This document shows, piece by piece, positions 2,768 to 46,758 of a DNA stretch of 64,000 nt. Origin of the DNA: Actinomycetota bacterium (GTDB lineage: Bacteria; Actinomycetota; Acidimicrobiia; Acidimicrobiales; Aldehydirespiratoraceae); assembly GCA_029979265.1 (NCBI GenBank), contig JAPOHW010000008.1, forward strand, positions 82,324 through 146,323, given 5' to 3'. Numbering within the stretch: position 1 is the first letter of the stretch; each line of letters begins with the position of its first letter. The notes beneath the pieces were generated by a model. The model did no database searches. It had not been told where the DNA came from and was given only the letters and a program-made list of their open reading frames with translations. A program made the position numbers and the translations under genes.

Positions 2768-2818
2768 TCGAGGTCTCATCAACCGTCGACAGCGGCGCAG
2801 AGAGGTACACGCACAGAG

Positions 2819-5344
2819 ATGTCAGACACACCCGTCGAAGACACACAACCTGAAGACATCACGATCATCGAGATCCAAGAGGAGATGGAAAGCTCCTTTC
2901 TCGACTACGCAATGTCGGTCATCATCAGCCGCGCGCTTCCCGATGCTCGTGACGGCCTGAAACCGGTCCACCGCCGCATCCTGTGGTCGATGTACGACCA
3001 GGGCTTTCGCCCTGATCGGGCCCATGTGAAATGTGCCCGTGTCACCGGCGACGTGATGGCACGCTTCCATCCTCACGGCGACAGTGCGATCTACGACGCA
3101 CTGGCTCGGATGGCCCAACCCTTCTCCTTGCGCCATCCTCTGATCGACTTTCACGGAAACTACGGCTCTCCCGAAGACCCTCCGGCTGCTGCTCGCTACA
3201 CCGAATCCCGACTCGACCGTCTGGCGATGCAGATGCTGGCCGACATCGATGAAGACACGGTCGATTTCATCGACAACTATTCGGGAGATTTCACCGAACC
3301 TGCGGTGCTGCCTGCCCGCTTTCCGAACCTGTTGGTCAACGGCAGTCAGGGCATTGCGGTGGGTATGGCCACCAACATCCCACCCCACAATCTCAACGAG
3401 GTGTGTGCCGCCGTCACACACTTGCTCGCCAGTCCTGATGCGACAACAGATGAACTCATGGAGTTCGTCAAGGGACCCGACTTTCCGACCGGTGGTCAGA
3501 TTCTCGGCCGCGTCGGCATCGAGTCGGCCTATCGAACCGGACGCGGTTCGGTGAAAATGCGAGCGTCGGTCGATGTGGTCGAGCGAGGCCAACGCCAAGC
3601 ATTGGTGGTCACCGCCTTCCCGTACCAGGTGTCGGCAGGGGCTGTGGCCCGCAAGATCTCCGAGTTGGTCAACAGCCGCGAACTCGACGGGATCGCCGAT
3701 GTCAATGACGAGTCCTCTGGCGATGACACGCGATTCGTGATCACCCTCAAACGCGATGCCAATCCGGAAGTGGTGCTGAACAATCTCTGGAAAGCGACGC
3801 CACTCCAGACGAGTTTCGGGGTGAACATGGTCGCTCTGGTTGGTGGCGTACCGCGCACACTCACGTTGCGCGACGCGTTGGTGGCCTACGTCGATCATCA
3901 GATCGAAGTCGTCACCCGCCGGTCGGAATATCGCCTGGATCAGGCCCAGAAGCGACTCCACATCGTCGAGGGGCTGTTGAATGCACTCGAGCTGATCGAC
4001 GAGATCATCGCCACGATTCGATCGAGTGAAGATCGAGGAGCGGCCCGAGAAGCACTCATGGCCGGCATCGTTCCAGCGGCTGGGGGAACAGCCGTTGCCT
4101 TTTCCGAAGTGCAGGCCAACCACATCCTCGACATGCAACTCGGACGCTTGACCCGGCTTGGTCGCACGGACCTCGAGGAGGAGGCCGGGCAACTGCGTGA
4201 GACCATCGGTGAACTCGAGACCATCCTCGGTGACGACGCCAGGCTCCGCTCCGTCATCACCGAGGAACTCCAAGCGATCGCCGACGACTTCGGGGAGGAT
4301 CGGCGCTCGAGTCTCGAAATCGATCCAGGCGAGTTCAATATCGAGGACCTCATCGACGACGACCCGTTGGTGTTCACGATGACGGCGACTGGCTATGTGA
4401 AGACCACACCGGCAGAGGAGTTCCGGTCACAGGGCCGTGGGGGTCGCGGTATCGCGGGGACCAAACTCAAAGACGAGGACACCGTCACCCATCTGATCCA
4501 GACCACCGCCCACAGCTATCTGTTGTTCTTCTCGACCCGTGGGCGGGTCTATCGCCTGAAGGCGCACGAGATACCGGTTGCGAGTCGAACGTCGCGAGGC
4601 ACGGCGATCGTCAACCTGCTGCCGCTGCACGAAGGTGAAACGATTCAAGCGATCATCGACACTCGCGACTACGAGACGAAGCGATACCTCTTCTTCGCGA
4701 CGGCCAAGGGTCGAGTCAAGAAGACCCGCTTCAACGCCTACGACTCGTCGCTGCGCGCCGGCTTGATTGCGATCAAACTGAACGACGACGACGAACTGGT
4801 GGAAGTCATCCCGACCAACGGTGTGTACGACATCCTGCTGTCGAGTCGTTTCGGTCAAACCATCCGGTTCAGAGAAGATCAGGTCCGCGAAATGGGCCGC
4901 AATGCAGCGGGCGTCGTGGGTCTCAAATTCAAGAAGCCGAGCGATGCTGTGGTTGCGTGCGACATTGCGCGAGACGGCACCTCGTTGCTCCACATCACCG
5001 AACAGGGATTCGGCAAGCGGACCGACGTCGACGACTATCCGACAAAGGGTCGAGGTGGGATGGGTGTGGTCGGTATCAAGATCGTCGAGGGACGGGGGTC
5101 GGTTGTCGGCACACTTGTCGTGGAAGAAGACGACGAGATTCTGGCGGTCACTCGCAAGGGTGTTCTGATCCGAACCACTGCAGCTGACATCTCCCGGCAG
5201 GGTCGCGCCGCGAGTGGTGTCAAGGTCATCACTCCCGACGCAGACGATTCGGTGGCCTCGATCGCGCTGGTCAGCAGCGCTGAGGATGCAATCGTCGATG
5301 CCGGTGGCGACGGGTCCGCGGAGGACGAGCCCACCACTGACTGA
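2819..5344 (+). CDS. gyrA: DNA gyrase subunit A
   Basis: An 841-residue breakage-reunion subunit of gyrase. The catalytic tyrosine is Y127 in AARYTESRL. The quinolone-resistance region [10 protein letters not shown] keeps Ser89 and Asp93 (E. coli Ser83 and Asp87), that is, the residues of a quinolone-sensitive enzyme. The C-terminal DNA-wrapping domain carries a gyrase box, QGRGGRG in place of the E. coli QRRGGKG, which marks it as GyrA rather than ParC. The tail after the last blade is acidic. It follows gyrB on the same strand and is probably cotranscribed. Confidence 0.97.
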
Positions 5345-5755: not shown

Positions 5756-6622
5756 GTGCCGCACACCTTCACCGAGGTCATCCCGATTTCGCTGTTCGCG
5801 AAGGGCGGGTTTCGCTGGCGCCTCGCGACGCGAGGGTTGGCCCCCGAGGGGTGGCTGCAGTTCGACGATGCGTACCGTACGTACCTTGCCGAGAAGCACC
5901 GGGTGTTGCGTGCGCATCGAGCCGATGCGCTGGCGTTCGTTCCCGGATCAGAGGAGCCTGCGGCCGAAATCGCCGATCTCGTCGCAGCTGAACTCACCGA
6001 GCGGGAACTTCCGCTGCCTCCCGATCGTGCTGCACAGCACCCACTCGAGTGGTCGGCGCGCGGTGTTCAGGAGGACCTCTGTCTCCTCGAGCGCGGTGCA
6101 GCGGGGTGGCGGCTGACCGCAGCGGCGGTGTGTTTCCCCACTCGCTGGAGCCCCGCCGACAAGATTGGTCTCGGGCTGAGAGCCATTCACGATCCAGTCC
6201 CTCGCTACGAGGACATTGCGGATACCGTCGACCGATTTTTCGATCGTCTTCGGCCCGGTTCGTTGGTGTGGCGCCCCAATTGGTCACTGGTTGGCGACGA
6301 TCGCCTCCGGCTCCCGGTGGAGGATCGCCAAGCTCCCACCGCGGTGCTCGACCCGATCGATGAACTTTGGATGCGGGTCGAGCGTCAGACCATCCGACGT
6401 CTGGTCGACCATCCTGACGCTGCAGTCTTCACGATCCGAGTGCACCGCTGGCCATTGATCGATGTGCTGGACAGTGTCGATGCCGGGTTGGAGGAGGAGT
6501 TGCGCACCATGCCGATCGACGTTGCTGCCTACAAGAACATCGATGAGTGGCGTGGCCATCTCGCCACCGTGCTCGAGAACCGCTCCAGAGCAGAGCGAAG
6601 GGCGGAGCGAAGAGCAGAGTGA
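5756..6622 (+). CDS. DUF3445 family protein (heme-dependent N-demethylase-like)
   Basis: A 288-residue protein of the DUF3445 family; some members are described as heme-dependent oxidative N-demethylases. Family hallmarks visible are the N-terminal RWRLATRGL segment, QEDLCLLE, the central AAVCFPTRWSPADKIG motif, the IHDPVPRY motif, a WRPNWSL block and a C-terminal RVERQTIRRL and VFTIRVHRWPL. Substrate is unknown. It starts at a GTG 15 bases after the TadE-like gene. The last residues are a run of the repeat RAER encoded by purine-rich direct repeats, which look like a recent slippage extension. Confidence 0.75.
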   Translation: MPHTFTEVIPISLFAKGGFRWRLATRGLAPEGWLQFDDAYRTYLAEKHRVLRAHRADALAFVPGSEEPAAEIADLVAAELTERELPLPPDRAAQHPLEWSARGVQEDLCLLERGAAGWRLTAAAVCFPTRWSPADKIGLGLRAIHDPVPRYEDIADTVDRFFDRLRPGSLVWRPNWSLVGDDRLRLPVEDRQAPTAVLDPIDELWMRVERQTIRRLVDHPDAAVFTIRVHRWPLIDVLDSVDAGLEEELRTMPIDVAAYKNIDEWRGHLATVLENRSRAERRAERRAE

Positions 6623-18315: not shown

Positions 18316-19695
18316 GTGTTGCGGTTTGTGCGGGTCCTCATCGGGGCGGCTGCTGCTGTCGCCATTGTGGTGTCGTCCGCCTCTCCAGCAGGTGCGCACC
18401 GCAACGACGAGTCGTATCTCTACATGGATGTTGGTGACTCCTCCCTGAGTGGCCGCGTCGAGATGCCCTACCCCGACATTCGCACGGTGTTCGGCCTGCG
18501 TCTGTCGGGTTCGGTCACCGACATCAGCGCCGAGGTCGAGGCCAACCTCGACCGTCTCCAGCGGTACGCAAAGGACAAGAGCGCGATCGGTGCCGACGGC
18601 GAGGTGTGGGAGCTGACCTTCGACGGGTTCGAACTCCTCGACGAGGAGGGGGTCGGGGTGAACGGCAACGGCTACGTGATCCTGCCGTTCACCGTCGCCA
18701 TGCCGCTCGACGCAGTTCCACAGGTGGTCGAGACCGTTTTCGCGCCGTTCCTCGACGAGATTCCCGGCCGCAACAACATCGTGTTGGTGTCCAACGACTG
18801 GAAGCGAGGAATCGTCGAAGAGGAGGCCAACGAACTCCTGATCGTCACCGCAGAACGACCGGGTGGCGAAATCGACTTCGGTGAGACCAACCAGTGGCGC
18901 AACTTCCGGTACAGCATCGACCTCGGTATCGATCACATCAAGACCGGCCCAGACCACATCTTCTTCATCCTCGTGCTGCTGCTCACCTCGGTGCTGCTTC
19001 TCACGGGCTCGATCTGGAGCCCGTCACCGAGCTTCACCTACTCACTCGGGCGGCTTGTGCTGGTGGCAACGATGTTCACGATTGCCCACTCGATCACGTT
19101 CACGCTCGCCGGGCTCGACCTCATCCCGCTGCCGCCTTCCCAGTTGGTCGAGACGTTGATCGCCCTGTCGATCGGTGCAGCAGCGCTCCACAACCTTCGC
19201 CCAGTGCTCGGGCATCGTGAATGGGCGCTCGCCTTCGGGTTCGGGCTCTTTCACGGCATGGGCTTCGCTGGGCTCGTTCAGGAACTCGACATCGGCCGAG
19301 GCACGCAACTGGTCTCCCTGCTCGGGCGAAACGTGGGTATCGAGATCGGACAGCTTGTCATCATCGCCATCGCGTTCCCCGGTCTCTTCATGCTCCGCCA
19401 GACCCGGCTGTACCGACCGATTCTGGTGATCAGTTCGCTGGGACTCGCTGCGTTGAGTGGCGTCTGGGTGGTGGAACGAGTGTTCGAGGTCGATGCAGGC
19501 ATCAACGACCTCATCCTCAAGGTCGTCTACTGGCCCCGCTCGTTCTGGGTGGCAATGGTCTTCACGGGCATCGCTGCCGCGGTTCGGCAGATCGCTGTCG
19601 AACGCGACGGACTGCTGCCGGTGGGGGTACCGGCAGGATCAGACGACGCCGAGGTGCCGAGCGACGATGTTGCGCAGCACGTCGGTGGTGCCTGA
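18316..19695 (+). CDS. HupE/UreJ-family membrane protein
   Basis: A 459-residue protein with a signal peptide (about residues 1-28, cut after SPAGA), an extracytoplasmic domain of about 180 residues and a C-terminal membrane domain with six or seven helices. The membrane domain carries the HupE/UreJ hallmark HIKTGPDHIFFILVLLL, the histidine-bearing IAHSITFTLAGL and FGLFHGMGFAGLV. Related proteins transport nickel or cobalt, but this two-domain version is uncharacterised. Start is the GTG with GGGAGG at 18305-18310. Its 3' end overlaps the convergent acyl-CoA dehydrogenase gene by 57 bases. Confidence 0.8.
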   Translation: MLRFVRVLIGAAAAVAIVVSSASPAGAHRNDESYLYMDVGDSSLSGRVEMPYPDIRTVFGLRLSGSVTDISAEVEANLDRLQRYAKDKSAIGADGEVWELTFDGFELLDEEGVGVNGNGYVILPFTVAMPLDAVPQVVETVFAPFLDEIPGRNNIVLVSNDWKRGIVEEEANELLIVTAERPGGEIDFGETNQWRNFRYSIDLGIDHIKTGPDHIFFILVLLLTSVLLLTGSIWSPSPSFTYSLGRLVLVATMFTIAHSITFTLAGLDLIPLPPSQLVETLIALSIGAAALHNLRPVLGHREWALAFGFGLFHGMGFAGLVQELDIGRGTQLVSLLGRNVGIEIGQLVIIAIAFPGLFMLRQTRLYRPILVISSLGLAALSGVWVVERVFEVDAGINDLILKVVYWPRSFWVAMVFTGIAAAVRQIAVERDGLLPVGVPAGSDDAEVPSDDVAQHVGGA

Positions 19696-20823
19696 GTACA
19701 CCAACCCGCCGACGGCATCACGGAGCTGGCGCTCGATCTCGAACTCCGAGACGTACCCCTTGGCGCCGTGGAGCAGGGCGGCATCGACCGACGAGGCGAT
19801 CCCGGCGTCAGCGGTTGCGATCTTGGCCAGAGAGGCAGCGAGCGACATTCCTCGGCCGGTGACGTCGGCCATCGCCGCCCGGTAGAGCAGCAACCGACAG
19901 TGCTCATGCCTCTCTTTCATCGCGACGAGGCGGTGAGAGACCGCCTGGTAGCGGGCGATGGGTTGACCACCCTGCTCGCGCTCGAGGGCGTACGCCGTGG
20001 CGTCGTGCAGTTGCCGTTCCATCGCGCCGATCTGCGGAGCGAACACGTAGGCCCGTTCGATGTCGAGGACCGCGCTGAAGATGCTTGCGCCGGCTCCCTC
20101 GCGACTCAGCAGGGCGTCAGCTGGAAGAACGACATCACGAAATTCGATGTCACCGAAGGGAGTGGTGCGCATGCCCATCTTCTCGCGCAACGGACCCTGG
20201 ACGACACCGGGGAGATCCATGGGAACGAGGAACGCCGAAACACCCCAACTGCCGGCCTCCGGGCGGGTCGACGCAAAGGCAATGCACAGATCCGCAACTG
20301 GTCCGAAGGTCAGATAGGCCTTGTGCCCGTTCAGCAGGTACGTCCCGTCAGCCTGCTTCATTGCTGTGGCTTGCAGCGAGAACGCGTCCGAACCCGAGCC
20401 AGGTTCGGTCATCGCCAGTGCGGCGAACATCGATCCGTCCAGAAGCCCTGGCAGCCAACGTTCGCGCTGTTCGTCGGTGGCGAAGCGCACGAGGGTCACC
20501 TGTGAGCTCACGATCTGGCTCGCAAGCGCAAAGGTGAGCCCATTGTCGGTGCAGCCGTAACCGAGGCCCTCGAGGGTGAGCAGCGTCGTGGCCCGATCGG
20601 CTCCGAGGCCACCATGTTCCTCGGGCACCATGAGACGGTGGATGCCGCGATCGGCACAGCGCCGCCAGTCGTCGATCGCGAACACGGACCGATGATCGGC
20701 ATCGACGAGGTCGGTCTGACTCAGCTCGGCAGCTGCCCAGTCCGCTGCCTCCCGCTTCACCGGATGGTCGAGGTCGGTCATCGCACGGGCGAGGGCGAGA
20801 AGTTCGGCGTCAGTGTCGGTCAC
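19639..20823 (-). CDS. Acyl-CoA dehydrogenase family flavoprotein
   Basis: A 394-residue flavoprotein of the acyl-CoA dehydrogenase fold. Recognisable parts are PEEHGGLGADRATTLL, the flavin-contacting FAALAMTEPGSGSDAFSL, NGHKAYLTFG, and the C-terminal YSGTTDVLRNIVARHLG. The canonical catalytic Glu of the YEGT motif is replaced by Ser377, so substrate and chemistry may differ from ordinary fatty acyl-CoA oxidation. The GTG start (20823) overlaps the end of the upstream PhyH gene by 14 bases, so they are cotranscribed. The adjacent stand-alone adenylation enzyme and carrier protein raise the possibility that it oxidises a carrier-bound aminoacyl group, as prolyl-carrier dehydrogenases do (inference). 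The catalytic base could lie elsewhere. Confidence 0.8.
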   Translation of the reverse strand: MTDTDAELLALARAMTDLDHPVKREAADWAAAELSQTDLVDADHRSVFAIDDWRRCADRGIHRLMVPEEHGGLGADRATTLLTLEGLGYGCTDNGLTFALASQIVSSQVTLVRFATDEQRERWLPGLLDGSMFAALAMTEPGSGSDAFSLQATAMKQADGTYLLNGHKAYLTFGPVADLCIAFASTRPEAGSWGVSAFLVPMDLPGVVQGPLREKMGMRTTPFGDIEFRDVVLPADALLSREGAGASIFSAVLDIERAYVFAPQIGAMERQLHDATAYALEREQGGQPIARYQAVSHRLVAMKERHEHCRLLLYRAAMADVTGRGMSLAASLAKIATADAGIASSVDAALLHGAKGYVSEFEIERQLRDAVGGLVYSGTTDVLRNIVARHLGVV

Positions 20824-21841: not shown

Positions 21842-23434
21842 GTGACCGAAATCGAGACGCTCGACGACCTGCTCGACACAGCAGTCACGATTGCCGGTGC
21901 GGACACCGAAGCGATCACCGACGGTCGGAGCCGTCTGAGCTGGGGCGAGTACCGCGATCTCGCTGGTCGAATCGCGACTGCGCTGCTGCGATCGGGAGTG
22001 ACGCCCGGTGACCGGGTGGGAGTCCATCTGCACAAGTCGGTGCACTCGTTCGCATCGGTTCATGGTGTACTGCGTGCCGGCGCCGTCATGGTGCCCCTCG
22101 ATGCGCTGGCCCCTGTGGCGGCGATCAACGCGGTGCTGCGTGATGCCGGCGCGTCGGCGATCGTCACGGCTGCGTCGGGTGAGGCGCTTGCGGCGATCAC
22201 GGCAGGAACATCGGTCACCGGCGTGGTCACGCCGCTGGCCGACAGTGTTGCGGTTCCCGGGTCGTCGACGATCGGAGCGGACCGTCTGGTCGGGCTCGAA
22301 CCGGCACCACCGCCGGTTGTCGATCCCGACGATCTCGCCTACCTCATGTACACGTCCGGTTCCACCGGCACGCCGAAGGGCATGGCCCACACCCACCGCA
22401 GCGGCCTCACCTATGCACGGCTCGCAGCGGAGACCTACACCGTCGACTCGAGTGACCGGCTCGCCAACATCGCTCCGCTGCATTTCGATCAGTCCACCTT
22501 CGAGCTGTACGCAGCGCCGCTCGTCGGTGCGTCAGTCCTGGTGGTGCCCGACGGTGTCCTGCGATTCCCGGCGAGTTTGGCGAAGCTCATCGCCGACGAG
22601 CGCATCACCGTGTGGTACTCGGTGCCGTATGTCATCGACCAGATGGTTTCCCGTGGCGCAATCGAGGATCACGATCTCGGGAGCTTGCGTTGGATTCTGT
22701 ACGGGGGTGAACCGTTCCCTCCGACGGCGCTCGCTCGGGCCATGCGAGCCATTCCGTCCGCCCGGGTTTCGAACATCTACGGCCCGGCTGAGGTCAATCA
22801 ATGCACCGTGTACAACCTCGATACCCCACCGACAGACGATGCCCCGATTCCGATCGGGCGAGCGTGGAGTGGCGCTGCGCTTCGGTTGGTTGACGAGACG
22901 GGCAAGCCGGTGGCCCCGGGTGCACCCGGAGAATTGCTGGTCAGTTCTGACACCATGATGCGCGGGTACTGGAACCGCCCAGACCTCGATGCGCGGGCCA
23001 TTGCGCAAGAGGATGGCCGACGTTGGTACCGCACCGGAGATCTGATTGCGGAGCGTTCCGATGGGAACCTCGTCTTTGTGGGTCGTGTCGACAATCAGGT
23101 CAAGGTGCGTGGACACCGCGTCGAGGTCGAGGCGGTCGAGGCAGCCCTCCTCGACATCGACGGGATCGATGCTGCCGCAGTGCTGGTCGATCGCCCTGCG
23201 AGCGGCGACGACCATCTCGTCGCTGTCGTGTCGCCGGAGGCTGCGACGGTGGACGGCCGTGATGCCGATCTGATCCGACAGCTCGCCGCAACGCTCCCGC
23301 GCTATGCCGTGCCGTCCCGCGTCGTCGGTCTCGACGACCTGCCGCGAACAGGAACCGGCAAGGTCGACAGGCGGGCGGTCGGTCGTGCGGTCGGCGTGGG
23401 AGATGACCGAGGAGACCACAGGGCCGACCGGTAG
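21842..23434 (+). CDS. Stand-alone amino-acid adenylation enzyme
   Basis: A 530-residue ANL ligase of the NRPS adenylation type without attached carrier domain. Core motifs: A3 YTSGSTGTPKG (170-180), A4 around PLHFDQSTFEL, A5 NIYGPAEVNQC, A7 RWYRTGDL, A8 GRVDNQVKVRGHRVEVEAVE and A10 GTGKVDRR. The specificity-code residues read D-Q-F-Y-L-G-I-Q-C-K by alignment. Some positions (Tyr, Leu, Cys) recall the proline code of stand-alone prolyl adenylating enzymes of pyrrole pathways, but I cannot assign a substrate with confidence. The carrier protein follows after 10 bases, so it most likely loads that protein. It starts at GTG. Confidence 0.85.
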   Translation: MTEIETLDDLLDTAVTIAGADTEAITDGRSRLSWGEYRDLAGRIATALLRSGVTPGDRVGVHLHKSVHSFASVHGVLRAGAVMVPLDALAPVAAINAVLRDAGASAIVTAASGEALAAITAGTSVTGVVTPLADSVAVPGSSTIGADRLVGLEPAPPPVVDPDDLAYLMYTSGSTGTPKGMAHTHRSGLTYARLAAETYTVDSSDRLANIAPLHFDQSTFELYAAPLVGASVLVVPDGVLRFPASLAKLIADERITVWYSVPYVIDQMVSRGAIEDHDLGSLRWILYGGEPFPPTALARAMRAIPSARVSNIYGPAEVNQCTVYNLDTPPTDDAPIPIGRAWSGAALRLVDETGKPVAPGAPGELLVSSDTMMRGYWNRPDLDARAIAQEDGRRWYRTGDLIAERSDGNLVFVGRVDNQVKVRGHRVEVEAVEAALLDIDGIDAAAVLVDRPASGDDHLVAVVSPEAATVDGRDADLIRQLAATLPRYAVPSRVVGLDDLPRTGTGKVDRRAVGRAVGVGDDRGDHRADR

Positions 23435-23444
23435 TCTGCGCCCG

Positions 23445-23714
23445 ATGTCGAGCGTTGATCACCGAGCGTTCTCCGAGGAGTTGGTTGCCTTCATCCGCGC
23501 GGAGGTGGCCATTGGTGACCATCCGCTCGAGGCCGACACCGATCTCGTTCTGACCGGGCTCGTCGACTCACTCGGCATCGTGCTCGTCGTCGAATGGATC
23601 GAATCGCGGCTCGACATCACGATCGACCCCGGCGACATTGTCATCGAGCACTTCGACATGGTCGCGTCGATGGTCACTTATTTGCGGGGTCGTAGCGACA
23701 CGTCGCTCGACTGA
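23445..23714 (+). CDS. Acyl/peptidyl carrier protein
   Basis: An 89-residue carrier protein. Helix 2 holds the 4'-phosphopantetheine attachment serine Ser42 in TGLVDSLGIV, and the following VVEWIESRLDITIDPGDI fits a helical carrier fold. It lies directly after the stand-alone adenylation gene, and its stop is one base from the end of the convergent NRPS gene. TAGTCT lies seven bases before the ATG, so it could also be transcribed from its own leaderless promoter. It most likely carries the starter residue delivered to the first condensation domain of the NRPS. A start at an earlier ATG (23403) would overlap the upstream gene. Confidence 0.85.
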   Translation: MSSVDHRAFSEELVAFIRAEVAIGDHPLEADTDLVLTGLVDSLGIVLVVEWIESRLDITIDPGDIVIEHFDMVASMVTYLRGRSDTSLD

Positions 23715-23715
23715 T

Positions 23716-26700
23716 TCAGCGCAGCCGTCGTTCGATGTCGGCGGTGATCTGACCAACTCGATCGGCATCCATGATCGAGTTGGAGGTCCTGTGCCTGCCT
23801 TTGATGACAACCTCGTCGAGGTGAGGTGCGACTGTGCGCCACAGCTTGCTGGTGTGCCCGGGGTTCGATCCGGAGGCACGGTAGAAGCTGACAGGCAACT
23901 CGAGTGCCCGGGGTTCGAAGTAGTTCGCCTGTTCGGGGACCTCTCCCACCGGCGCCTCCACGGCAGCGGGTCCGGCGGCGACAGCTGTGACAGCATCCTC
24001 CGCCTGCCTGCGCGCACCCCGCGTCATCCACCGGATGACGCGATCGATCGGTGAGGGCAACCGACGACGCACGAATCTCCATACTTCTTCACGCAGTTCG
24101 GCCAAGCCCTCTGGGCGCAGCAGTGATTTGGTGTTCCACCATCGATACGACCACCGCACCGACCATCGGCCTCGGTCGACGGTCGGGAAGATGGTGTCGA
24201 CGAGTACCAGGCGATCGACCGGCCGTCCCGCTTCGACCAGCCGGGTGGCGAGCTCGGCTGCAACGACACCACCGATCGACCAACCCAGCACCACCACCGG
24301 TCGGTTGCCACGGGGAAGGTCGTCGAGGGCTGGTTCCATAGCGGTCACGATCTGAGGGACTGTCACGATCGGGGCCATGCTCGCCTCGGGGTTGTAGTCG
24401 AGAGCGATGACCTCGAGGTCGGGGGAGAACGCCTCGACCATGTCCCGGTAGCCGAAGATGCTGAACCAGGCGGGTGTGATGAGCACGAGCGGACTGTCGG
24501 GTGCGCCGGACTGCATTCGCACGGTGGTGAAGGGTCTCGACGATCGATCGCCCGCCTCGAGGAGTTGCACCATCGCAGCTGGCGATGGGCCGGCGAGCAG
24601 GGTCGAGATCGGAATGGAGCGTCCGAGCGCATCACCGATTCGGGTGACGAGCGCCACTGCGGTGAGCGAGTCTCCCCCGGCAGCGAAGAAGTCGGTGTCG
24701 GGGTCGATCTGGGTGGGGGCGAGCACCGTGCTCCAGGCTTCGAGCACCGCTCGCTCGGTTGCGGTTCCCCCGGTGATCTCCGGGGTGGCCGACGGGGTCG
24801 GCACCGCGAGCTCGGCTGCTGCATGGCGGTCGAGTTTGCCGTTCTGGGTCCGAGGCAAGGACGGGTGGGTGACGAATCGGCGGGGAACTGCAGTCGCCGG
24901 GAGCCGCTCACCAAGATGGGCACGGAGGTGTGCTTCGTCGATCGGACCATTCGTCTCGAGGTGGGCGACGAGGAGTGGTGGCTCGCCGACGGCGACGACC
25001 GCCGATGCGGTGATGCCGTCCATGGCGTCGAGCAATCGTTCGACCTCGGCCGGTTCGAGTCGAACGCCCCCCACATTGAGCTGATCGTCGACTCGTCCGA
25101 GGAAGCGAAGCACACCATCGACCACGCGCACGAGGTCGCCGGTGCGGTACCACCGGCGACCGTCGGCCTCCACGAATCGCTCTGCGGTGGCGTCTTGGTC
25201 GTTCAGGTACCCGGCAGTGACACCGGGACCTGCAATCCACAACTCACCCGCCACCTCCGCCGGCGACGCGGAGCCGTCGGCACCGACGACGCGCGCTGTG
25301 GCACCTGGAATCGGGCGCCCGATCGGGACGGGGTCGTCCCCTCGGGTGAGTCGATGCGCCGTCGACCAGACCGTGGCCTCGGTCGGACCGTACTCGTTGA
25401 CGAGGGCAACGGTTGGAGCGAGTTCGTGATGGCGCTCGACCAGTGCTGGTGGACATGCTTCGCCGGCCACGATGGCCACTGTGAGTCCGGCAACGGCGGT
25501 CGGCGCTCGTTCGAGCAGAGCGCTGGCAAGGCTCGGCACCATCAGGGTGTGGGTGATGTCGAGCGACTCGATGAGCGATCCGAGGCGATCGACGTCGCGC
25601 ACGTCGTCGTCGCCGGGCACGACGACGGTGCCGCCGGTGGCGAGCGGCCAGTAGAGGCCGACGACTGAGCTGTCGAATCCCGGACTCGAGGTGACCAGGA
25701 AACGGTCCGGACGTCGGTCGAACCAGACATCGCGTGCCGCCGTGCTCGCAGCCAGGTTGGCGTGGGTCACCGCCACACCGCGAGGCTCGCCCGTCGAACC
25801 CGAAGTGAAGATCACGTAACTGTCGTCGGATCCCTCGATCATGCGTACTCGCTCGGCCAGAGAGGCCGTGTCACCTTCGGCCGGACCGGCAACGGCCACG
25901 GTGTGAGGTGCCCACCGATGATGACGGCCCGGATCGTCGGTGATGACGACGTCGAGTTCGGCTGCGTTGGCGATGGCGTCGAGACGGGTGTCGGGCAAGG
26001 TCGGGTCGAGTGGGACGGCGGCACCTCCCGCGGCCTGAGCTCCGTAGAGGCCGACGACCGTCTCGATCGATCGTGCCACCGCCACACCGACCCTTTTCGG
26101 CTGTACGCCGCCGAGCGCGGTGATCACTGCGGCCGCTGTGGCATCGACAGCTCGCCCGAGACTCGTGTAGTCGAGAACACCACCCTTCGCATCTGCCACT
26201 GCAGTTGCAGTCGGAGTCGTGTCGATGTGGCTGATCAGGCGTTCCAGCACCAGTGCGGTGTCGTCGAGCGCCGGCCCATCGAGATCATCTCCCCGATGGG
26301 GTTCGGTGAGGTGGGCGATGTCCCAGGTCGGATTCCGGACACCGTCTTCCAGCGTGTTCCGGAAGGCGTCGAGCAGTCGCTCGGCAGCCTGCTCGCTCAC
26401 TACCGAACCGCGGTACTCGAGGGCCAAGCGGATGTCGTCGCCGAGCTCCTGGACGAAGAAGGTGACATCGGCGACCGACGAGCCGGTGGCGAGGATCCGC
26501 TGTTCGGCGGTTGCCCCCGGATAGGTCGGCTGGTCGATGCGTTCGTAGGCAAGCATCACCGACACGTCGGGTACTGGGCGGCCAGCCTCGCGGGCGTCCC
26601 GGACGACCCAGGCGAAGGGGTACGTCCGGTGCGGCAGTGCTGCCTCCATCGTGTCGGCAGCCTGACCGACCAAGCCGGTGAAGGTGTCGTTGGCCTCGAT

Positions 26701-29700
26701 CGAAAGCGAGAGTGCGATCGGGTTCAGGTAATAACCGATCACGTCGGCGGTGTCGGGGCGATCGTTCGACGACGCCGTGATCCCGATCTGGACCTGTCCC
26801 GACCCGGAGAACGTCGACACCACGATGCCGGCCGATGCCAGGGCGGTCGAGAACGCCGTGCGCCCCACGGCGTTCATCTCCGCAACAGTGATCGATGACG
26901 AGGCGACGAGGTACCCGTCGGGTTGGGTGTCGTCGACGGCAAGGCGGAGCGATGCCGCCCCGACCTCGCCGAAGCTGTCGGCCCAGAACCGTGCACTGGT
27001 GTCGTCTTCGGTGTGTCGACGCCGCTGCTGCAAGCTGTGGTGGGCGTAGCTGACCGTGAGGTCGGGGAGGGCTTCTCCTGCCACGCGGCGGGTGATCTGG
27101 CTCCAGAACGTGTCGAAGGTTCCTGATCCGAGAACGATGTGGTGCATGCCGAGAAAGAGCGCAACCCGCCCGTCCCCGAGATCACCGACGTGGGCCCGTA
27201 CCAGCGGCCCGGCGTCGAGGTCGAATGGTTCGCGCTGGATTCGGGCCGACCAGTCGTCGAGTTCGTCGTCGCGCACAGCGCCGAGGTCGACGAAGCGCAG
27301 TGCACTCGTGCGGTCGAGGGTCGTGCGGTCGCGGTCGAAACATGTGTGCAGGGTTTCGTGATGCATGACCACATCGCGAAGTGCGGTTTCGAGCTGCTCG
27401 ATGTCGATCGGAGCGTCGTGCCCTTCGAGGGTGTACAGCCGGGTGACGTTGTACCGAGGATTGATCGGGTCGGTCCGGTACTCGAAGAGCATGTACTCCT
27501 CTCCGGGGGAGAGAGGGAGCGGGCCGTCGGGTAGGTCGACAGCTGTCGGGGCGGTGATCGCTTCGGCACCGTCCACGATGGCGGCAAGTTCTGCGATCGT
27601 CCGGGCTCGGAACACCGCAGCGTCGGGGAGATCCGTGCCGAACGCTGCGTCGATTCGGGCGACGACAGCGAGGGCGTCGAGTGAGGCGCCCCCGAGGTCG
27701 AAGAAGTCGTCAGTGATCCCGACCGAGTCGAGTCCGAGGAGCTCACCCCAGATGGCGACGAGCCGTTCCTCGGTCGGGGTCTCGGGCCGCACACCTGCTC
27801 CACCTCGACGGTGGAAGCGGGTCGGGGCGGGAAGAAGATCGGGGTCGGCTTTGGCGCTGGCTGCGAGTGGCACTTCGTCGAGCCGCACGAACGCAGAGGG
27901 AATGGCGTGGGCCGGCAGCCGCTCGCGCAGCGATCGGCGGAGTTCGTCAGGGTCGAGATCGACACCGTTGACGCTTTGGTACCACGCAGTCAGGACGCCT
28001 TGCGTCTTCGGTTCGTATCCGATCTCCCCGAGAATGGCGGCGACCTCGGTTTCATCGATGAGATCGTCGAGTTCCTCGAGTGCTTCGTCGCGGGTCTTGT
28101 GGCCGAGTCTGACGTCCCAGCTGTAGGGCTCGGCGTAGTTGTGGTAGCCGCGCTCTTGCTGGTGGACCCGGATACCGGCCACGTTGATGAGACAGTTCGT
28201 CGATCGGCCTGTGTCGGCTGGACGTACCCATGGGGCACGGTGCTCGAGGAAGTCGTAGAGCTCGTGCAACGGCACATCGACGTAGCGGTAGAAGTCCAGG
28301 AACTCGAGGCGGTCGAGCACGGTCGGGTCGTCGAAGACTCGTTGCTCGGGCAACAGTTCGGTCACGGCATCGTGGGTTGCGTGGTAGACCCGCCGAGCCT
28401 CGAGCACGGTCGCGTCGATGGCGGCGGGATCGAAACGACCTGCTTCGAATTGGTGGGGCACGAGTCGGGTTTCGAAGAACTGCCCGCGCGACAGGCCGGT
28501 GACGATCACTGGGATGCCGAGCGCTTCGGCTCGAGCAACGGCGAGGGTGTAGATGGTCTTGTAGCAGCCTTGGCAGACGTTGGAGTAGCGATCGAGGCTG
28601 TCGGCAAAGATGGCGTTCATCGCATCGGTCGTTGCGAACTCGTGGGTGATCCCTAGGTCGGCGATGCTGCGTCGAACGTTTTCTTTCGCACCCTCGGAGA
28701 TGAACCCGTTGTCGAGGGTCAGGGCGTGGACCTTCCAGCCCCGCTCGACGAGTTGATACAGGGCATAGGTCGAGTCCTTTCCCCCCGACAGCAGGTGCAG
28801 GCAGTCGTAGTCGCCGGTGCGTCGCTCGCGGGCTGCTCGCAGGCGTGCATCGAGGTCGGCGGGGGTTCGGAACCAATCTCTCGTCTGTGGTTCGACCTCT
28901 TCGAACTGCCGACACACGGAGCACACGCCGAGAGCGTCGATGTTCACTCCGGGGACGTCGACACCGAGACCGCACTGTGCGCACCGTCGAACATCGATGC
29001 GGTTGGCCGCGTCGGTGGGCTGCCACACCCGTACCAGTGCGTTGTCGATCGCCGGATGGGAGACCAGAGCGGCTTCGACTTCGGCCGGCTCGAGTCGGAT
29101 GCCGTTGACCTTGAGTTGGTCGTCCTCTCGACCGCCGTACACGAGTACACCGAGACGTTCCACCCGGACGCGGTCGCCGGTGCGATACCAGACCGTGGAA
29201 TGAAGAAGCGCCTCGTCGTCGCCGAGCACCAGTCGATCGTCGTCGGTGACGGGCGGCGGCCCGAACCGCTCGAGGGTCAGTTCCGGACGGTTCAGATAGC
29301 CGGTCGCCATTCCGGGTCGGTGTACGAAGAGTTCGCCCCAGACGCCCGGTGGTGCAACCTCACCCAGGGCGTCGAGGACGACGAGACGGCTACCCGGTGC
29401 CGCATACCCGATCGGAACGTCGACACCGAGGTCGTTTTCGGGGTCGTACTCATGGATCATGCAGCCGACCACCGCCTCGGTGGGGCCGTATTCGTTGAAG
29501 ATCCGGACCGGTCCAGCACATCGGGCCCGCACCCGGTCCGCCACAGGGCGTCGGAACGCTTCTCCGCCCACGACGAAAGTGTCGATCGGCAGTGGACCAT
29601 CCGCCACGCGGGTGAGGATTTCGAGCTGTGACGGCGTGCCTTTGAGGAAGGTGATTCGGGGATCTCGACTGATCTGGCCGAGGGCCTCGACCGGATCGGT

Positions 29701-31722
29701 GTCGAAGACCACTGTTCGACCACCGGTCAACATCGAAAGGAAGACACTGGTGATGGACAGGTCGAACACGAGTGCCGAGTGCAGCGCCACCCACGGAGGA
29801 TTCGCCGGATCGCAGTACGACTCGACCGCGAAGTCGAGGTAGTCGGCGAGTCCCCGATGAGAGATCGGCACCCCTTTCGGCAGGCCGGTCGAGCCCGACG
29901 TGTACAAGATGTATGCCCCGTCGTCGAGGTCGACCGTCGGGAGGTCGGGAGCGTCGGTGGTGTCTGGATCGGTGGTCGCCTCGGACGGGAGGCGATCGAG
30001 AATCGTGAACAGACCCGCATCGGCGGCAATCGTCTCGTGTCGACCGACCGGGTCTGCGGGGTCGAGAAACACGAACCGCCCACCGGCTCGCAGCACTCCG
30101 TGGACAGCGATCAGGACCTCGATGCTTCGCCCCATGCGCAGTCCGACCGGATCTCCAAGGCGAAGCCCGTCGGCGACGAGTCGGTGGGCAAGCGCGTCGG
30201 CTCGTCGGTCGAACTCGGACCCGGTGATGGTGACGGCACCGTGTTCGACCACGATGTCGTCGGGGGCGTCGGTCAGGCGCTCGCGGATCACGTCATGGAC
30301 CGGGCGATCGATGCCACGAACCAGTGGCCGTGGATTGAGCGCCGCAAGGTCCTGCCGCTCGTGGCTGTCGATCACAGCGGTCCGACCGGCCTGATCGTCG
30401 GGCCGGTCGAGGATCCCCTGCAGGATCGCAGCGAAGTGCCGCGGCAGGGCACGGTGTGAACCGTCGATCGAAAGACCGCAGTTGAGGTCGAGCTCCCAAC
30501 GCAAGACGTGGTCACCCTCGACCGATGGATCGAATTCGTCGAAGACCTGTACGCGGATGGCGTGGTTCGGTTCGACGTGACCCGACCGCACCCAGTCACG
30601 CCGGGCCGGATAGCCGGCGAAGGTGTCCCAGCGGGCCGTGGTGACGTTCAACACGACCTCGAACGGCGTGTCGGGACTCTCCCCCGGGCGAGCCCTGCGC
30701 AAGACCTGCATCACCGACCGGACCGTGCGAGCAAACATCTCCCGATGGGTCTCGCTGTCGTCGAAGGTGACGACCATCGGGTAGAGCTCCATCATCGGCC
30801 CGATTGCCGTGCTCCCGGAGCGGCCCGATCGATGATGAACCGGGACACCGACCACCACACTCGACCGGCCGTCGAACCGTCGCATCGCAATCGTTGTTGC
30901 CATTGCCGACAGGGCCAGAAGACTGAGTTCTGGAGAAAGGGCTCGGTACGGACCTTGCAGCGCCTCAGCCAGAGACTCGTGCCAGCCGTCTCTGGGGAGT
31001 GGGCAACGATCGACCCGCGTCGTTCGCTCACCGCGAGGTCCGTACGGGGTGAGCGGGGCCTGCGGTCCGGCCGTCTGTGCGTCCTGTGCCCACTCTGCCG
31101 CTCGAGTTGCAGTCGCCTCGTCGTCGGGACTGACCGAGTCGAAGAACGACCCTGCTACGACGTCGTCCAGATCAGCGTCGTGGGGCGATCCGTCGTGGCG
31201 GTAGGCGGTCGAGACGGCGTCGGCGAGTCGTGCTGCACCCCACGCATCGATGGCGATGTGGTGGATGTCGAGCCACCACGTCCAGTCCTCGTCGCCATGG
31301 TGGAGAAGAACAGAGTCGTACACGCAGGTGGTCGCATCGATGGGTTGCGCGATTCGTTCGACCGACCATTCCTCGAGTTCGTCGACCGGCACGTCGAGCA
31401 CGAGCGTTTGGGCCGGGGGTGCGGCCAGAACACCGATACGCGCCCCGTCGGGTTCCACCACCGAACGCAGCACGTCGACCTTTCGGACGACTGCATCGAA
31501 CGCTGCCACGAAACGACGAGGGTCGAGTGGTCCGCGAATACGCACCCGCTCTCCCATGTTGGCCAACGGGATACCGTCATGGCGACGCTGACTCGCCCAG
31601 ATCAGACGCTGCGTGCGGGTCGGTTCGTGCACCGCCTCGCGGCGAGGGCCGACGGCGACCGGAACCGAACCTGCATCCGACTGGGGCCCACCACTGTGAC
31701 CAGTGCTCGAAACGGCATCCAA
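23716..31722 (-). CDS. Two-module NRPS with PP-loop-interrupted adenylation domain
   Basis: A 2668-residue NRPS: C1 (about 35-450, HHIAID with His154/155), A1 (475-1300), T1 (Ser1347 in LGGASL), C2 (1400-1805), A2 (1820-2305), T2 (Ser2352 in GGDSL) and a terminal thioesterase (2405-2668, GWSIGG with Ser2482). A1 is split between A8 (864-886) and A9 (1269-1275) by a zinc-finger/PP-loop region (see separate entry). The A1 code D-L-T-K-V-G-E-V-G-K matches the published asparagine code (DLTKLGEVGK) in nine positions. The A2 code is D-S-V-L-I-A-E-V-W-K, which I do not assign. C2 has HHIVLG where HHxxxDG is expected. The A1 A10 motif is degenerate (SAKADPDLL). The start may be this TTG or the GTG at 31632, which begins the C domain. 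With C1 first, a starter must come from another carrier, plausibly the one at 23445. Confidence 0.9.
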   Translation of the reverse strand: MDAVSSTGHSGGPQSDAGSVPVAVGPRREAVHEPTRTQRLIWASQRRHDGIPLANMGERVRIRGPLDPRRFVAAFDAVVRKVDVLRSVVEPDGARIGVLAAPPAQTLVLDVPVDELEEWSVERIAQPIDATTCVYDSVLLHHGDEDWTWWLDIHHIAIDAWGAARLADAVSTAYRHDGSPHDADLDDVVAGSFFDSVSPDDEATATRAAEWAQDAQTAGPQAPLTPYGPRGERTTRVDRCPLPRDGWHESLAEALQGPYRALSPELSLLALSAMATTIAMRRFDGRSSVVVGVPVHHRSGRSGSTAIGPMMELYPMVVTFDDSETHREMFARTVRSVMQVLRRARPGESPDTPFEVVLNVTTARWDTFAGYPARRDWVRSGHVEPNHAIRVQVFDEFDPSVEGDHVLRWELDLNCGLSIDGSHRALPRHFAAILQGILDRPDDQAGRTAVIDSHERQDLAALNPRPLVRGIDRPVHDVIRERLTDAPDDIVVEHGAVTITGSEFDRRADALAHRLVADGLRLGDPVGLRMGRSIEVLIAVHGVLRAGGRFVFLDPADPVGRHETIAADAGLFTILDRLPSEATTDPDTTDAPDLPTVDLDDGAYILYTSGSTGLPKGVPISHRGLADYLDFAVESYCDPANPPWVALHSALVFDLSITSVFLSMLTGGRTVVFDTDPVEALGQISRDPRITFLKGTPSQLEILTRVADGPLPIDTFVVGGEAFRRPVADRVRARCAGPVRIFNEYGPTEAVVGCMIHEYDPENDLGVDVPIGYAAPGSRLVVLDALGEVAPPGVWGELFVHRPGMATGYLNRPELTLERFGPPPVTDDDRLVLGDDEALLHSTVWYRTGDRVRVERLGVLVYGGREDDQLKVNGIRLEPAEVEAALVSHPAIDNALVRVWQPTDAANRIDVRRCAQCGLGVDVPGVNIDALGVCSVCRQFEEVEPQTRDWFRTPADLDARLRAARERRTGDYDCLHLLSGGKDSTYALYQLVERGWKVHALTLDNGFISEGAKENVRRSIADLGITHEFATTDAMNAIFADSLDRYSNVCQGCYKTIYTLAVARAEALGIPVIVTGLSRGQFFETRLVPHQFEAGRFDPAAIDATVLEARRVYHATHDAVTELLPEQRVFDDPTVLDRLEFLDFYRYVDVPLHELYDFLEHRAPWVRPADTGRSTNCLINVAGIRVHQQERGYHNYAEPYSWDVRLGHKTRDEALEELDDLIDETEVAAILGEIGYEPKTQGVLTAWYQSVNGVDLDPDELRRSLRERLPAHAIPSAFVRLDEVPLAASAKADPDLLPAPTRFHRRGGAGVRPETPTEERLVAIWGELLGLDSVGITDDFFDLGGASLDALAVVARIDAAFGTDLPDAAVFRARTIAELAAIVDGAEAITAPTAVDLPDGPLPLSPGEEYMLFEYRTDPINPRYNVTRLYTLEGHDAPIDIEQLETALRDVVMHHETLHTCFDRDRTTLDRTSALRFVDLGAVRDDELDDWSARIQREPFDLDAGPLVRAHVGDLGDGRVALFLGMHHIVLGSGTFDTFWSQITRRVAGEALPDLTVSYAHHSLQQRRRHTEDDTSARFWADSFGEVGAASLRLAVDDTQPDGYLVASSSITVAEMNAVGRTAFSTALASAGIVVSTFSGSGQVQIGITASSNDRPDTADVIGYYLNPIALSLSIEANDTFTGLVGQAADTMEAALPHRTYPFAWVVRDAREAGRPVPDVSVMLAYERIDQPTYPGATAEQRILATGSSVADVTFFVQELGDDIRLALEYRGSVVSEQAAERLLDAFRNTLEDGVRNPTWDIAHLTEPHRGDDLDGPALDDTALVLERLISHIDTTPTATAVADAKGGVLDYTSLGRAVDATAAAVITALGGVQPKRVGVAVARSIETVVGLYGAQAAGGAAVPLDPTLPDTRLDAIANAAELDVVITDDPGRHHRWAPHTVAVAGPAEGDTASLAERVRMIEGSDDSYVIFTSGSTGEPRGVAVTHANLAASTAARDVWFDRRPDRFLVTSSPGFDSSVVGLYWPLATGGTVVVPGDDDVRDVDRLGSLIESLDITHTLMVPSLASALLERAPTAVAGLTVAIVAGEACPPALVERHHELAPTVALVNEYGPTEATVWSTAHRLTRGDDPVPIGRPIPGATARVVGADGSASPAEVAGELWIAGPGVTAGYLNDQDATAERFVEADGRRWYRTGDLVRVVDGVLRFLGRVDDQLNVGGVRLEPAEVERLLDAMDGITASAVVAVGEPPLLVAHLETNGPIDEAHLRAHLGERLPATAVPRRFVTHPSLPRTQNGKLDRHAAAELAVPTPSATPEITGGTATERAVLEAWSTVLAPTQIDPDTDFFAAGGDSLTAVALVTRIGDALGRSIPISTLLAGPSPAAMVQLLEAGDRSSRPFTTVRMQSGAPDSPLVLITPAWFSIFGYRDMVEAFSPDLEVIALDYNPEASMAPIVTVPQIVTAMEPALDDLPRGNRPVVVLGWSIGGVVAAELATRLVEAGRPVDRLVLVDTIFPTVDRGRWSVRWSYRWWNTKSLLRPEGLAELREEVWRFVRRRLPSPIDRVIRWMTRGARRQAEDAVTAVAAGPAAVEAPVGEVPEQANYFEPRALELPVSFYRASGSNPGHTSKLWRTVAPHLDEVVIKGRHRTSNSIMDADRVGQITADIERRLR
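28003..29001 (-). other. PP-loop ATPase domain inserted in the A1 domain
   Basis: Residues about 908-1240 of the NRPS. It begins with a zinc-finger-like Cys pattern (Cys914, 917, 934, 937), then the PP-loop SGGKDST (979-985) of ATP pyrophosphatases, LDNGFIS, an internal CQGC (Cys1050, 1053) and a late Cys1177. The layout resembles N-acetyl-sugar amidotransferases (WbpG-like) and tRNA thiolation enzymes such as TtuA/NcsA, where CxxC plus a third Cys hold an iron-sulfur cluster. Both groups activate a carbonyl with ATP and replace its oxygen with N or S. Which chemistry applies is not determined. Confidence 0.8.
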
Positions 31723-42637: not shown

Positions 42638-44857
<2,220 letters not shown>

Positions 44858-44921
44858 CGGGAACCCATCCAATTGGCTGGTTTTTCGATGCGCTCCGACC
44901 GTCGCCTACGCTGCGGCGCGT

Positions 44922-45782
44922 ATGGGAACGATGCGTCGACCATCGGCTCTGATCGACACCGGTCGGTATCCCATCGCGACGATGGGCCAGCGCCGCAATG
45001 ATCTCGTGGCATCGGTTCGGACTGGTTTGGCCGACGATGGGTGTGCCGTACTCCCGGGCTTTCTCAGTACGACAGGACGTCGTGAACTGCTCGCCGAGGC
45101 GCTCGAGCGTGAACCGCGAGCGTTCTACAACCCGGCCAACGAAGCCAACGTCCACCTGGGTGACGGCGACCCGACGCTTCCGGACGATCACCCCCGCAAT
45201 CGGTTCCTTGCCCGAACCAACGGGTTCGTCCGAGCCGACGAGTGGGACGACTCGACCCATGCCAAGCGCCTGTACGACTGGTCGCCACTCAAGGACTTTC
45301 TGCGGGATTGTCTCGGTAAGGACGAGCTGTACGTCTACGACGATCCGGTCTCGAACATGATCGTCAACGTCCAGCGGACGGGCCAAGAATTCAACTGGCA
45401 CTTCGACACGAACGAGTTCACGATCACGATGCTCCTGCAGCCGGCCGATCAGGGTGGGCTGTTCGAATACGTACCGGATCTCCGCAACCCCGCTGATGAG
45501 AACGAAGCCGGCGTGAGTGCGGTGCTCGACGGCGATCGACGCGACGTGCGCACCATCGACCTTTGCCCCGGCGATCTCCAGTTCTTCCTCGGCCGGTTTT
45601 CGTTGCATCGGGTCACCCCCAACGAGGGGGCCACCACGCGCCTGCTGCTGATCATGTCGTTCGGCGAGTCGCCCGGGTCGGTTGGATCGGTGCAGCGGAC
45701 CCGGAGTCTGTACGGCAAGGTCACCGACACGCATCTGGCAGCAGCCTCGGCCCCGGTTCGCGCCGACGCTCTGGTGGACTGA
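44922..45782 (+). CDS. 2OG-Fe(II) oxygenase
   Basis: A 286-residue non-heme iron dioxygenase: His160 and Asp162 in FNWHFDTNEF, His229 in SLHRVTP and the 2-oxoglutarate-binding Arg240. The overall layout fits prolyl-hydroxylase-like oxygenases rather than TauD. The ATG at 44922 is used; TACGCT lies nine bases before it. It is divergent from katG and shares the operator region, so it may belong to an oxidative-stress response. Substrate is unknown. A renalase-like gene follows after four bases. Confidence 0.8.
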   Translation: MGTMRRPSALIDTGRYPIATMGQRRNDLVASVRTGLADDGCAVLPGFLSTTGRRELLAEALEREPRAFYNPANEANVHLGDGDPTLPDDHPRNRFLARTNGFVRADEWDDSTHAKRLYDWSPLKDFLRDCLGKDELYVYDDPVSNMIVNVQRTGQEFNWHFDTNEFTITMLLQPADQGGLFEYVPDLRNPADENEAGVSAVLDGDRRDVRTIDLCPGDLQFFLGRFSLHRVTPNEGATTRLLLIMSFGESPGSVGSVQRTRSLYGKVTDTHLAAASAPVRADALVD

Positions 45783-45786
45783 TCCG

Positions 45787-46758
45787 ATGCGCACACTGAT
45801 CGTCGGTGCCGGGATCGCCGGCTTGGCCGCTGCTCGTCGTCTCCTCGAGCTCGGCCTCGAGCCGGACGACCTGCGGATCGTCGACAAGGCTCGTGGGGTC
45901 GGTGGACGGATGGCGTCTCGTCGAATCGGGACCCCGGCTGGGGTGGCGCGATTCGATCACGGGGCACAGTTCTTCACGAGCCGAAGTGAGACGTTCAGCA
46001 GCGTCGTCGCCGCAGCTGTCGATGCTGGAGCCGTCGTGGAATGGACCCGCGGCTTCGGTCCCGATCCTGATGGACACCCACGGTGGCGTGGCAGTGCCGG
46101 CATGACCTCGCTGTGCAAGTGGCTTGCGGCCGACGCGGGACTCGAACCGCTGCTCGGTCACCGAATCATGGACCTGCGTGCCGAGTTGGCCGATCATCCT
46201 GCCGACGCAGTCATTCACACCGCACCTGTGCCGCAGGCCCTCGCCACGCTGGCCTTGGGTGCGATGCTCCCCGAGCCGACGGTCGCGCAACAGCTGGCAG
46301 AGATCCACTACAAACCGACGATCGCCGTCCTGCTCGCTCCGCAGATCGACCCGACCGGGCTGGCTGCGCACGGAGGGGCGCAGTACGTCGACCACCCCGA
46401 TCTCGCCTTCGTTGCCGACAACCGAGCGAAGGGAATCTCACCGGTTCCGGCGGTCACGATCCATCTGTCGAACGAACGCAGCAACGAGCTGTGGAATGCC
46501 ACCGACGACGACGTCTTGACCCGCGCCCTTGCGTGGGCCGCCGATGCGCTCGGTGAAGCTGGTGACCGCAAGGCGCTGGTCGGTCACCAGATTCAGCGTT
46601 GGCGCTACGCAGGCCCCGTCGACATTCATCCCGATGCAACGGTCGTGTGGGGGAACGATCCGGTGGTCGCTCTGGCCGGTGAAGCGTTCGCCGGTCCGAA
46701 GGTGGAAGGCGCGTTCCTGTCGGGGCGAGCCGCCGCCGACGCAGTGTTCGTTCGATGA
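45787..46758 (+). CDS. Renalase-like FAD-dependent oxidoreductase
   Basis: A 323-residue flavoprotein. RTLIVGAGIAGLAAARRLLE is the FAD-binding Rossmann motif, followed by DKARGVGGRMASRR and FDHGAQFFT, which together are typical of the renalase / NAD(P)-binding amine-oxidase-like family. The C-terminal GEAFAGPKVEGAFLSGRAAA is the flavin-contacting motif. Renalase oxidises aberrant forms of reduced nicotinamide. It lies between two genes with short gaps, in an operon started at the katG-divergent promoter. Confidence 0.8.
   Translation: MRTLIVGAGIAGLAAARRLLELGLEPDDLRIVDKARGVGGRMASRRIGTPAGVARFDHGAQFFTSRSETFSSVVAAAVDAGAVVEWTRGFGPDPDGHPRWRGSAGMTSLCKWLAADAGLEPLLGHRIMDLRAELADHPADAVIHTAPVPQALATLALGAMLPEPTVAQQLAEIHYKPTIAVLLAPQIDPTGLAAHGGAQYVDHPDLAFVADNRAKGISPVPAVTIHLSNERSNELWNATDDDVLTRALAWAADALGEAGDRKALVGHQIQRWRYAGPVDIHPDATVVWGNDPVVALAGEAFAGPKVEGAFLSGRAAADAVFVR

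Follow-up and report, generated by a model that had tools for sequence, protein, structure and literature searches.

A PP-loop domain predicted within an asparagine-type adenylation domain of an acidimicrobial nonribosomal peptide synthetase, a candidate thioamide synthetase

Auxiliary enzymes are known to interrupt the adenylation (A) domains of nonribosomal peptide synthetases (NRPSs), and the inserts named in the literature include methyltransferases, ketoreductases, oxidases and monooxygenases (PMC11355689, PMC8097286). CtaC of the closthioamide (CTA) pathway is described in PMC6772006 as an Fe-S PP-loop enzyme, a free protein, which forms thioamides only in substrates bound to its carrier protein, in which the PP-loop residues and three cysteines are important and which accepts sulfide in vitro. 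The same paper gives no sulfur-mobilisation enzyme in the CTA cluster, presents CtaC as the first nonribosomal peptide thioamide synthetase to be reconstituted and, in 2019, terms such thioamides exceedingly rare. In Thermotoga LarE a CXXC-C set of cysteines coordinates a [4Fe-4S] cluster required for sulfur insertion, according to PMC9283937, and a CXXC..CXXC sequence is given as the zinc motif of the N-acetyl sugar amidotransferases (NASATs) in PMC10607449. Here we describe a stretch of 64,000 nucleotides (the window, from contig JAPOHW010000008.1 of the Actinomycetota assembly GCA_029979265.1) encoding an NRPS whose first A domain (A1) is predicted to contain a PP-loop ATP pyrophosphatase domain, and we compare this domain with these systems.

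The NRPS is a two-module protein of 2668 amino acids (window 23716..31722, reverse strand, as are all features within it) and its open reading frame and Pfam domains, two condensation (C), two A, two peptidyl carrier protein (PCP) and one thioesterase (TE), give the order C-A1[PP-loop]-PCP-C-A2-PCP-TE. The A1 core (residues 455–899, 29026..30360) holds motifs A3 to A8, and the C-terminal subdomain with A9 and A10, the latter with its lysine (SAKAD), follows at 27787..28002, directly upstream of PCP1 (27568..27780, limits approximate, carrier motif LGGAS). Between them stands the insert, residues 909–1240 (28003..28998); the earlier note on this DNA had placed it at residues 908–1240, or 28003–29001, and that mapping is correct. 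In a profile-to-PDB alignment residues 579–623 of LgrA (6mfz) matched the columns before the insert and 621–779 those after it. LgrA is thus continuous across the insert, so the domain is an insertion within one loop, between A8 and A9, and not a replacement. An auxiliary domain at this place in an otherwise complete A domain is what defines an interrupted A domain, and the motifs and the LgrA alignment agree with the earlier note that A1 retains A3 to A8 with the insert preceding A9. The insert itself gave weak Pfam matches to ThiI (E 4e-6) and QueC (E 2e-5), members of the PP-loop family, and was modelled with a predicted local distance difference test score of 92.3 and a predicted template modelling score of 0.90. 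The profile search and structure prediction that the note proposed returned a predicted PP-loop fold in the A8–A9 loop. With the SGGXDS motif lying within the appropriate predicted fold, we classify the insert as a predicted PP-loop (AANH) ATP pyrophosphatase domain.

All the residues listed earlier (Cys914/917/934/937, SGGKDST 979–985, CQGC 1050–1053 and Cys1177) were present in the translated reading frame. Their conservation was read from a 241-row alignment drawn from the nearest matches of searches with the insert region and with the insert alone, and it therefore describes this family and not PP-loop proteins at large. SGGKDS (residues 979–984, 28771..28788) was conserved, save for one G, in the 236 ungapped rows. 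The CXXC of Cys1050 and Cys1053 (28564..28575) had both cysteines in 240 of 240 ungapped rows, and Cys1177 (28192..28194) was cysteine in 234 of 234. The four cysteines of the N-terminal CXXC..CXXC (28912..28983), a motif of the NASAT zinc type, were present in 180/181, 183/183, 202/203 and 206/207 ungapped rows, that is with at most one exception per column, between 34 and 60 rows having gaps at these columns. We predict two metal sites from these patterns, a tetracysteine site of the zinc type and a CXXC-C site of the [4Fe-4S] type. The dN/dS (nonsynonymous to synonymous substitution ratio) values were 0.06–0.21 against four relatives at dS 0.8–1.1, which points to strong purifying selection in the four pairs compared, and the insert looks catalytic.

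The comparison with LarE bears on the second of these sites. A profile of 33 inserts matched the [4Fe-4S] structure of mmLarE with CQGC lying on CYNC, and in a profile–profile comparison with five LarE proteins (the five read of six over the cut-off) SGGKDS, CQGC and TNC aligned with SGGVDS, CYFC and the third LarE cysteine (probability 95.9, E 6.1e-9). The CXXC-C of the insert is thus aligned in sequence with the known ligands of a [4Fe-4S] PP-loop sulfur transferase, Cys1177 being the predicted third ligand; the pairs at the alignment ends (279 with 177 and 282 with 180) would set Cys1177 opposite Cys176, the sulfur-giving residue of Lactobacillus plantarum LarE. The earlier note had offered a thioamide or an amidine as the likely product, and these remain the two leading options, but the alignment of the triad with the LarE ligands shifts the balance towards sulfur.

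The ten-residue code of A1 was read as DLTKVGEVGK. By the published code tables and residue mapping, codes of the DLTK[LIV]GEVGK type denote asparagine, and by this reading A1 would be an Asn-specific A domain. The code was DLTK[VIM]GEV[GA]K in 33/33 insert-bearing A domains, and among the 121 proteins of another set, which overlaps the first, all 120 resolved codes were DLTK[VI]GEV[GA], one being unreadable; the homologue in Roseovarius has DLTKVGEVG. The Asn-type code is also kept in the homologue of a Bacteroidetes metagenome-assembled genome (MAG; locus L019), which sits in a hybrid polyketide synthase/NRPS cluster. Since every readable insert-bearing A domain of the two sets carries such a code, asparagine, which the earlier note had suggested as the modified residue, appears well founded as the A1 substrate. 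Upstream of the interrupted A domain of L019 (L019:2-7297) we also observed an A domain that is apparently interrupted by a luciferase-like monooxygenase.

Relatives of the interrupted domain were found in many genomes. The protein searches, in which only the candidates with the most shared words were scored, gave 701 proteins of NRPS size for the insert region, the best 120 at 63–100% identity and the window's own protein (P0003) included, and 443 matches for the insert alone, of which the best 120 were considered. Seventeen of the 18 named loci belong to MAGs of Acidimicrobiia, Acidimicrobiales or Ilumatobacter and one to a Bacteroidetes MAG; among the locus rows L008/L009, L011/L037 and L026/L038 are identical or nearly so, most protein accessions are common to L039 and L040, and L094/L095 represent the two halves of a single contig. 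Within the class 17 of 395 genomes had the insert, the source genome included, but it was not found in the two genomes of the same genus sampled in that search. A sample of the phylum had it near full length in 3 of 296 genomes (the source again counted) and in part in seven others, Bacteroidota in 2 of 395 genomes, one being the seed, and of 13 matching plasmid records three covered over 80% of it. The listed insert-alone matches include fragments named as Pseudomonadota, Myxococcota, Gemmatimonadales and Chloroflexota; a viral-contig scan yielded no confirmed relative, and there was no match in a search of phages. The PP-loop and both cysteine sets are retained from Acidimicrobiia to the Bacteroidetes MAG and Roseovarius. 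Further PP-loop-interrupted A domains, which the note had proposed to look for, therefore exist, and an assembly artefact or chance event is ruled out by the independent genomes, the plasmids of cultured strains and the low dN/dS.

Because the insert combines the parts of CtaC with a position inside an Asn-type A domain and next to a carrier domain, we favour a side-chain thioamide synthetase that would act on carrier-bound Asn with sulfur held on the predicted [4Fe-4S] cluster, and we give this a probability of roughly 0.48. The motifs and spacing of the insert fit CtaC at the positions printed in the paper, which are those compared, and PCP1 lies just downstream. In the proposed sequence A1, to judge from its code and intact motifs, would activate Asn and load PCP1; the embedded domain would then bind ATP at SGGKDS and, as its family suggests, activate the side-chain amide oxygen as an AMP ester. 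Sulfide bound to the cluster's free iron would attack this ester with departure of AMP, as proposed for TtuA, LarE and CtaC. The first C domain would add a starter, probably a dehydro-prolyl or pyrrole-2-carboxyl unit made by the ligase, carrier protein and dehydrogenase encoded nearby, and module 2 together with the TE would complete a short peptide. The activation of the amide oxygen by ATP, a first step common to the options below, is the more secure part, and the identity of the nucleophile the less.

Several observations weigh against this assignment. In a rival view the insert is an amidine synthase, by which the Asn side-chain amide is activated and attacked by ammonia in the way that WbpG-type enzymes act on N-acetyl sugars. 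Both the best fold match and the best NCBIfam match of the insert are an amidotransferase. Against TIGR03573 the insert scored 94.6 bits, well short of the curated cut-off of 203.2, and the L019 relative scored 141.2 bits, likewise below it; we therefore did not accept the insert as a member of the N-acetyl sugar amidotransferases and retained that activity as a mechanistic rival. For a control, 198 Bacteroidota genomes gave 39 NASAT matches over the cut-off. Of these 30 loci were retrieved, 26 of them readable and four lacking a frame. The tetracysteine CXXC..CXXC of TIGR03573 is found in the insert and all four cysteines in 19/26 NASATs, but the later CXXC is missing in 25 of the 26 and present in L057 alone. 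The plasmid-borne L043, the only carrier of CXXC among five plasmid NASATs read, has it together with a cysteine at the third position, and both L043 and L057 are of the NASAT type with an adjacent HisH. The triad thus separates the inserts from most NASATs and is not exclusive to sulfur enzymes; it could be an ancient trait within the family, and for the sake of L043 and L057 we dropped it as proof of sulfur chemistry. The insert-bearing A domains probably share descent, and their common code would then not represent many independent events; L041, a related domain outside an A domain, has as its neighbouring A code DARHASLMT, which is not of the Asn type, and was dropped as independent support for Asn. 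Nor was a dedicated sulfur donor recognised among the cluster neighbours, although the CTA cluster has none either. The amidine reading is in turn opposed by a 73-row tree that placed the inserts with L041 and L042 (100/98) apart from the NASATs with L103 (99/95). In this tree the inserts require two label changes, several stand-alone rows form long branches, and the inserts may still have a single origin. A HisH-like motif stands beside 20 of the 26 NASAT loci read whereas the present cluster has no HisH/HisF; within the 30 cluster stretches, to which the search was confined, these occur in two, each time next to a NASAT gene separate from the NRPS. On balance an amidine synthase seems unlikely.

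Two further reactions start from the same AMP ester. A dehydration to the nitrile (beta-cyanoalanine), or closure of the side-chain and backbone amides to a six-membered ring, would accord with the similarity to QueC and ArtA, but that similarity is general to the fold and neither reaction should require a CXXC-C triad as sulfide carrier; we found no paper in our search on nitrile synthetases, and regard this route as improbable. Slightly less credit goes to a backbone thioamide synthetase, which in the manner of CtaC would modify the peptide bond formed with Asn once condensation has taken place. It has a direct model in CtaC, which acts on backbone amides (PMC6772006), but it makes the strict Asn code unnecessary; action on the side chain is the simpler explanation, though common descent could also account for the code. 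That the insert is structural or regulatory and has no catalytic role is a general possibility and very improbable here, given the retention of the PP-loop and both cysteine sets over such distant taxa and the strong purifying selection in the four pairs.

Other members of the wider family were seen alongside these comparisons. CXXC resembling that of [4Fe-4S] PP-loop enzymes occurs in the NASAT branch in L043:1501-2706, L057 and L103:2591-3805, and the stand-alone relatives L091–L093 have CXXC and a later cysteine. In a Streptomyces plasmid (L041:16196-22888) a PP-loop domain of the insert family forms the N-terminus of a C-domain protein and adjoins an A-PCP protein, asnB and an amino acid racemase. 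A stand-alone PP-loop protein with CXXC-C lies near an acyl carrier protein (ACP) and a ketosynthase in L042:7704-8852; a search with it gave 83 matches, mainly a separate stand-alone family with the triad in 60 of 60 examined and with Streptomyces, Frankia, Saccharothrix and Burkholderia among the names. None of the 83 could be named as CtaC, and the group is possibly an unrecognised thiotemplated family.

The remaining domains of the NRPS are a second C domain (26311..27516), an uninterrupted A2 (24835..26223) with the code DSVLIAEVW, PCP2 (24559..24750) and the TE (24010..24489). DSVLIAEVW or DSALIAEVW was read in 97 of 115 second A domains of the 121-protein set. The second C domain has HHIVLGSG, in which the Asp of HHxxxD is missing; by a crude first-match count this form occurs in 2/121 relatives, the window's protein included, with HHISIDAG in 19 and HHISVDAG in 13. 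Many relatives among P0085–P0122 are about 3000–3200 amino acids long and have an extra methyltransferase domain (PF13649).

Next to the NRPS are a stand-alone adenylation protein resembling proline ligases (21842..23434, forward strand; code DQFYLGINQ), an acyl or peptidyl carrier protein (23445..23714, forward, start codon not settled), an acyl-CoA-dehydrogenase-like protein nearest to prolyl-ACP/PCP dehydrogenases (19639..20796, reverse) and a HupE/UreJ-family membrane protein (18316..19695, forward). The dehydrogenase is nearest to the prolyl-ACP dehydrogenase 4IRN (284 bits) and scored 325.4 and 319.3 bits with the RedW and PigA NCBIfam models, below their cut-offs of 650 or 500; the best PDB matches of the ligase were the multidomain LgrA and then an L-prolyl-carrier ligase (284 bits). 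A like set of ligase, carrier and dehydrogenase stands beside the NRPS in the prolyl-ACP/PCP dehydrogenase cassettes (4IRN; RedW, PigA), although the present ligase code departs at several positions from the proline code. As ligase and dehydrogenase resemble prolyl-carrier enzymes, the starter is likely a dehydro-prolyl or pyrrole-2-carboxyl unit. When 30 stretches were searched with tblastn (29 loci, several short or cut, and window 10001-45000), the HupE/UreJ protein, the dehydrogenase and the carrier protein were each found in 23, with one weak match for the first and two weak or partial ones for the second; the count for the ligase was blurred by generic A-domain matches. The conserved HupE/UreJ protein may serve in metal transport, export or self-protection. 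Like neighbours are annotated on plasmids of Roseovarius pelagicus HL-MP18, with the NRPS, whose insert is 62.5% identical to the present one, and of Pseudohalocynthiibacter aestuariivivens RR4-35, where the NRPS is missing from the record table and the insert was located by tblastn. In L102, from another Bacteroidota genome, the insert has the ligase, carrier protein and dehydrogenase as neighbours too. Elsewhere in the window a Pfam HalD (halogenase D) match at 44790-46758 adjoins an amine oxidase gene, and a gene resembling the alpha subunit of haem-dependent oxidative N-demethylase (5756-6622) stands just after gyrB-gyrA (710-5344).

Should the thioamide assignment hold, the installation of sulfur inside an A domain would be new chemistry for interrupted A domains, the family with its hundreds of protein matches would have a sequence handle for mining, and engineers would gain the interrupted domain as a module. 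The cluster lies on plasmids in two cultured strains, which makes the claim directly testable. We put forward tentatively, at somewhat less than even odds, the wider proposal that an Asn selector fused to a thioamide synthetase making thio-asparagine founds a class of its own and that the cluster in Acidimicrobiia, roseobacters and Bacteroidota directs unrecognised short thioamide peptides.

The literature searched, which took in few subscription papers and does not establish absence from print, yielded no PP-loop, thioamide or sugar-amidotransferase domain with an NRPS or A domain, and a recent thioamide paper (PMC13185837) contains none of six NRPS terms looked for in it. The earlier note knew of no described case; for the class of chemistry CtaC is a precedent, so that the novelty lies in the embedding of such a domain in an A domain and in the side chain as its likely target. 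Compared with the interrupted A domains of TioS, KtzH and others (PDB 5WMM), the present one likewise has its auxiliary enzyme between A8 and A9 with the rest of the A domain intact, but the inserts of that type named in the available literature are not PP-loop enzymes. With NASAT, WbpG and WbuX (TIGR03573, PDB 8WEX) the insert shares its predicted fold as a whole, the N-terminal tetracysteine site included, but it stands in no sugar context. LarE, TtuA and NcsA have the PP-loop and the CXXC-C triad in common with it; they are free proteins with nucleotide or tRNA substrates, and similarity outside the core is low. CtaC combines the PP-loop and three-cysteine cluster motif, with a CXXC-to-C spacing of 127 against 124 in the insert, with a carrier-bound substrate such as is also expected here; it acts on amides in the backbone of a peptide bound to a PCP, and its pathway is independent of NRPSs, whereas the insert is embedded in an Asn-type A domain. 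We therefore rate the locus, on these sequence comparisons, as a known architecture, the interrupted A domain, with what would be a new enzyme class.
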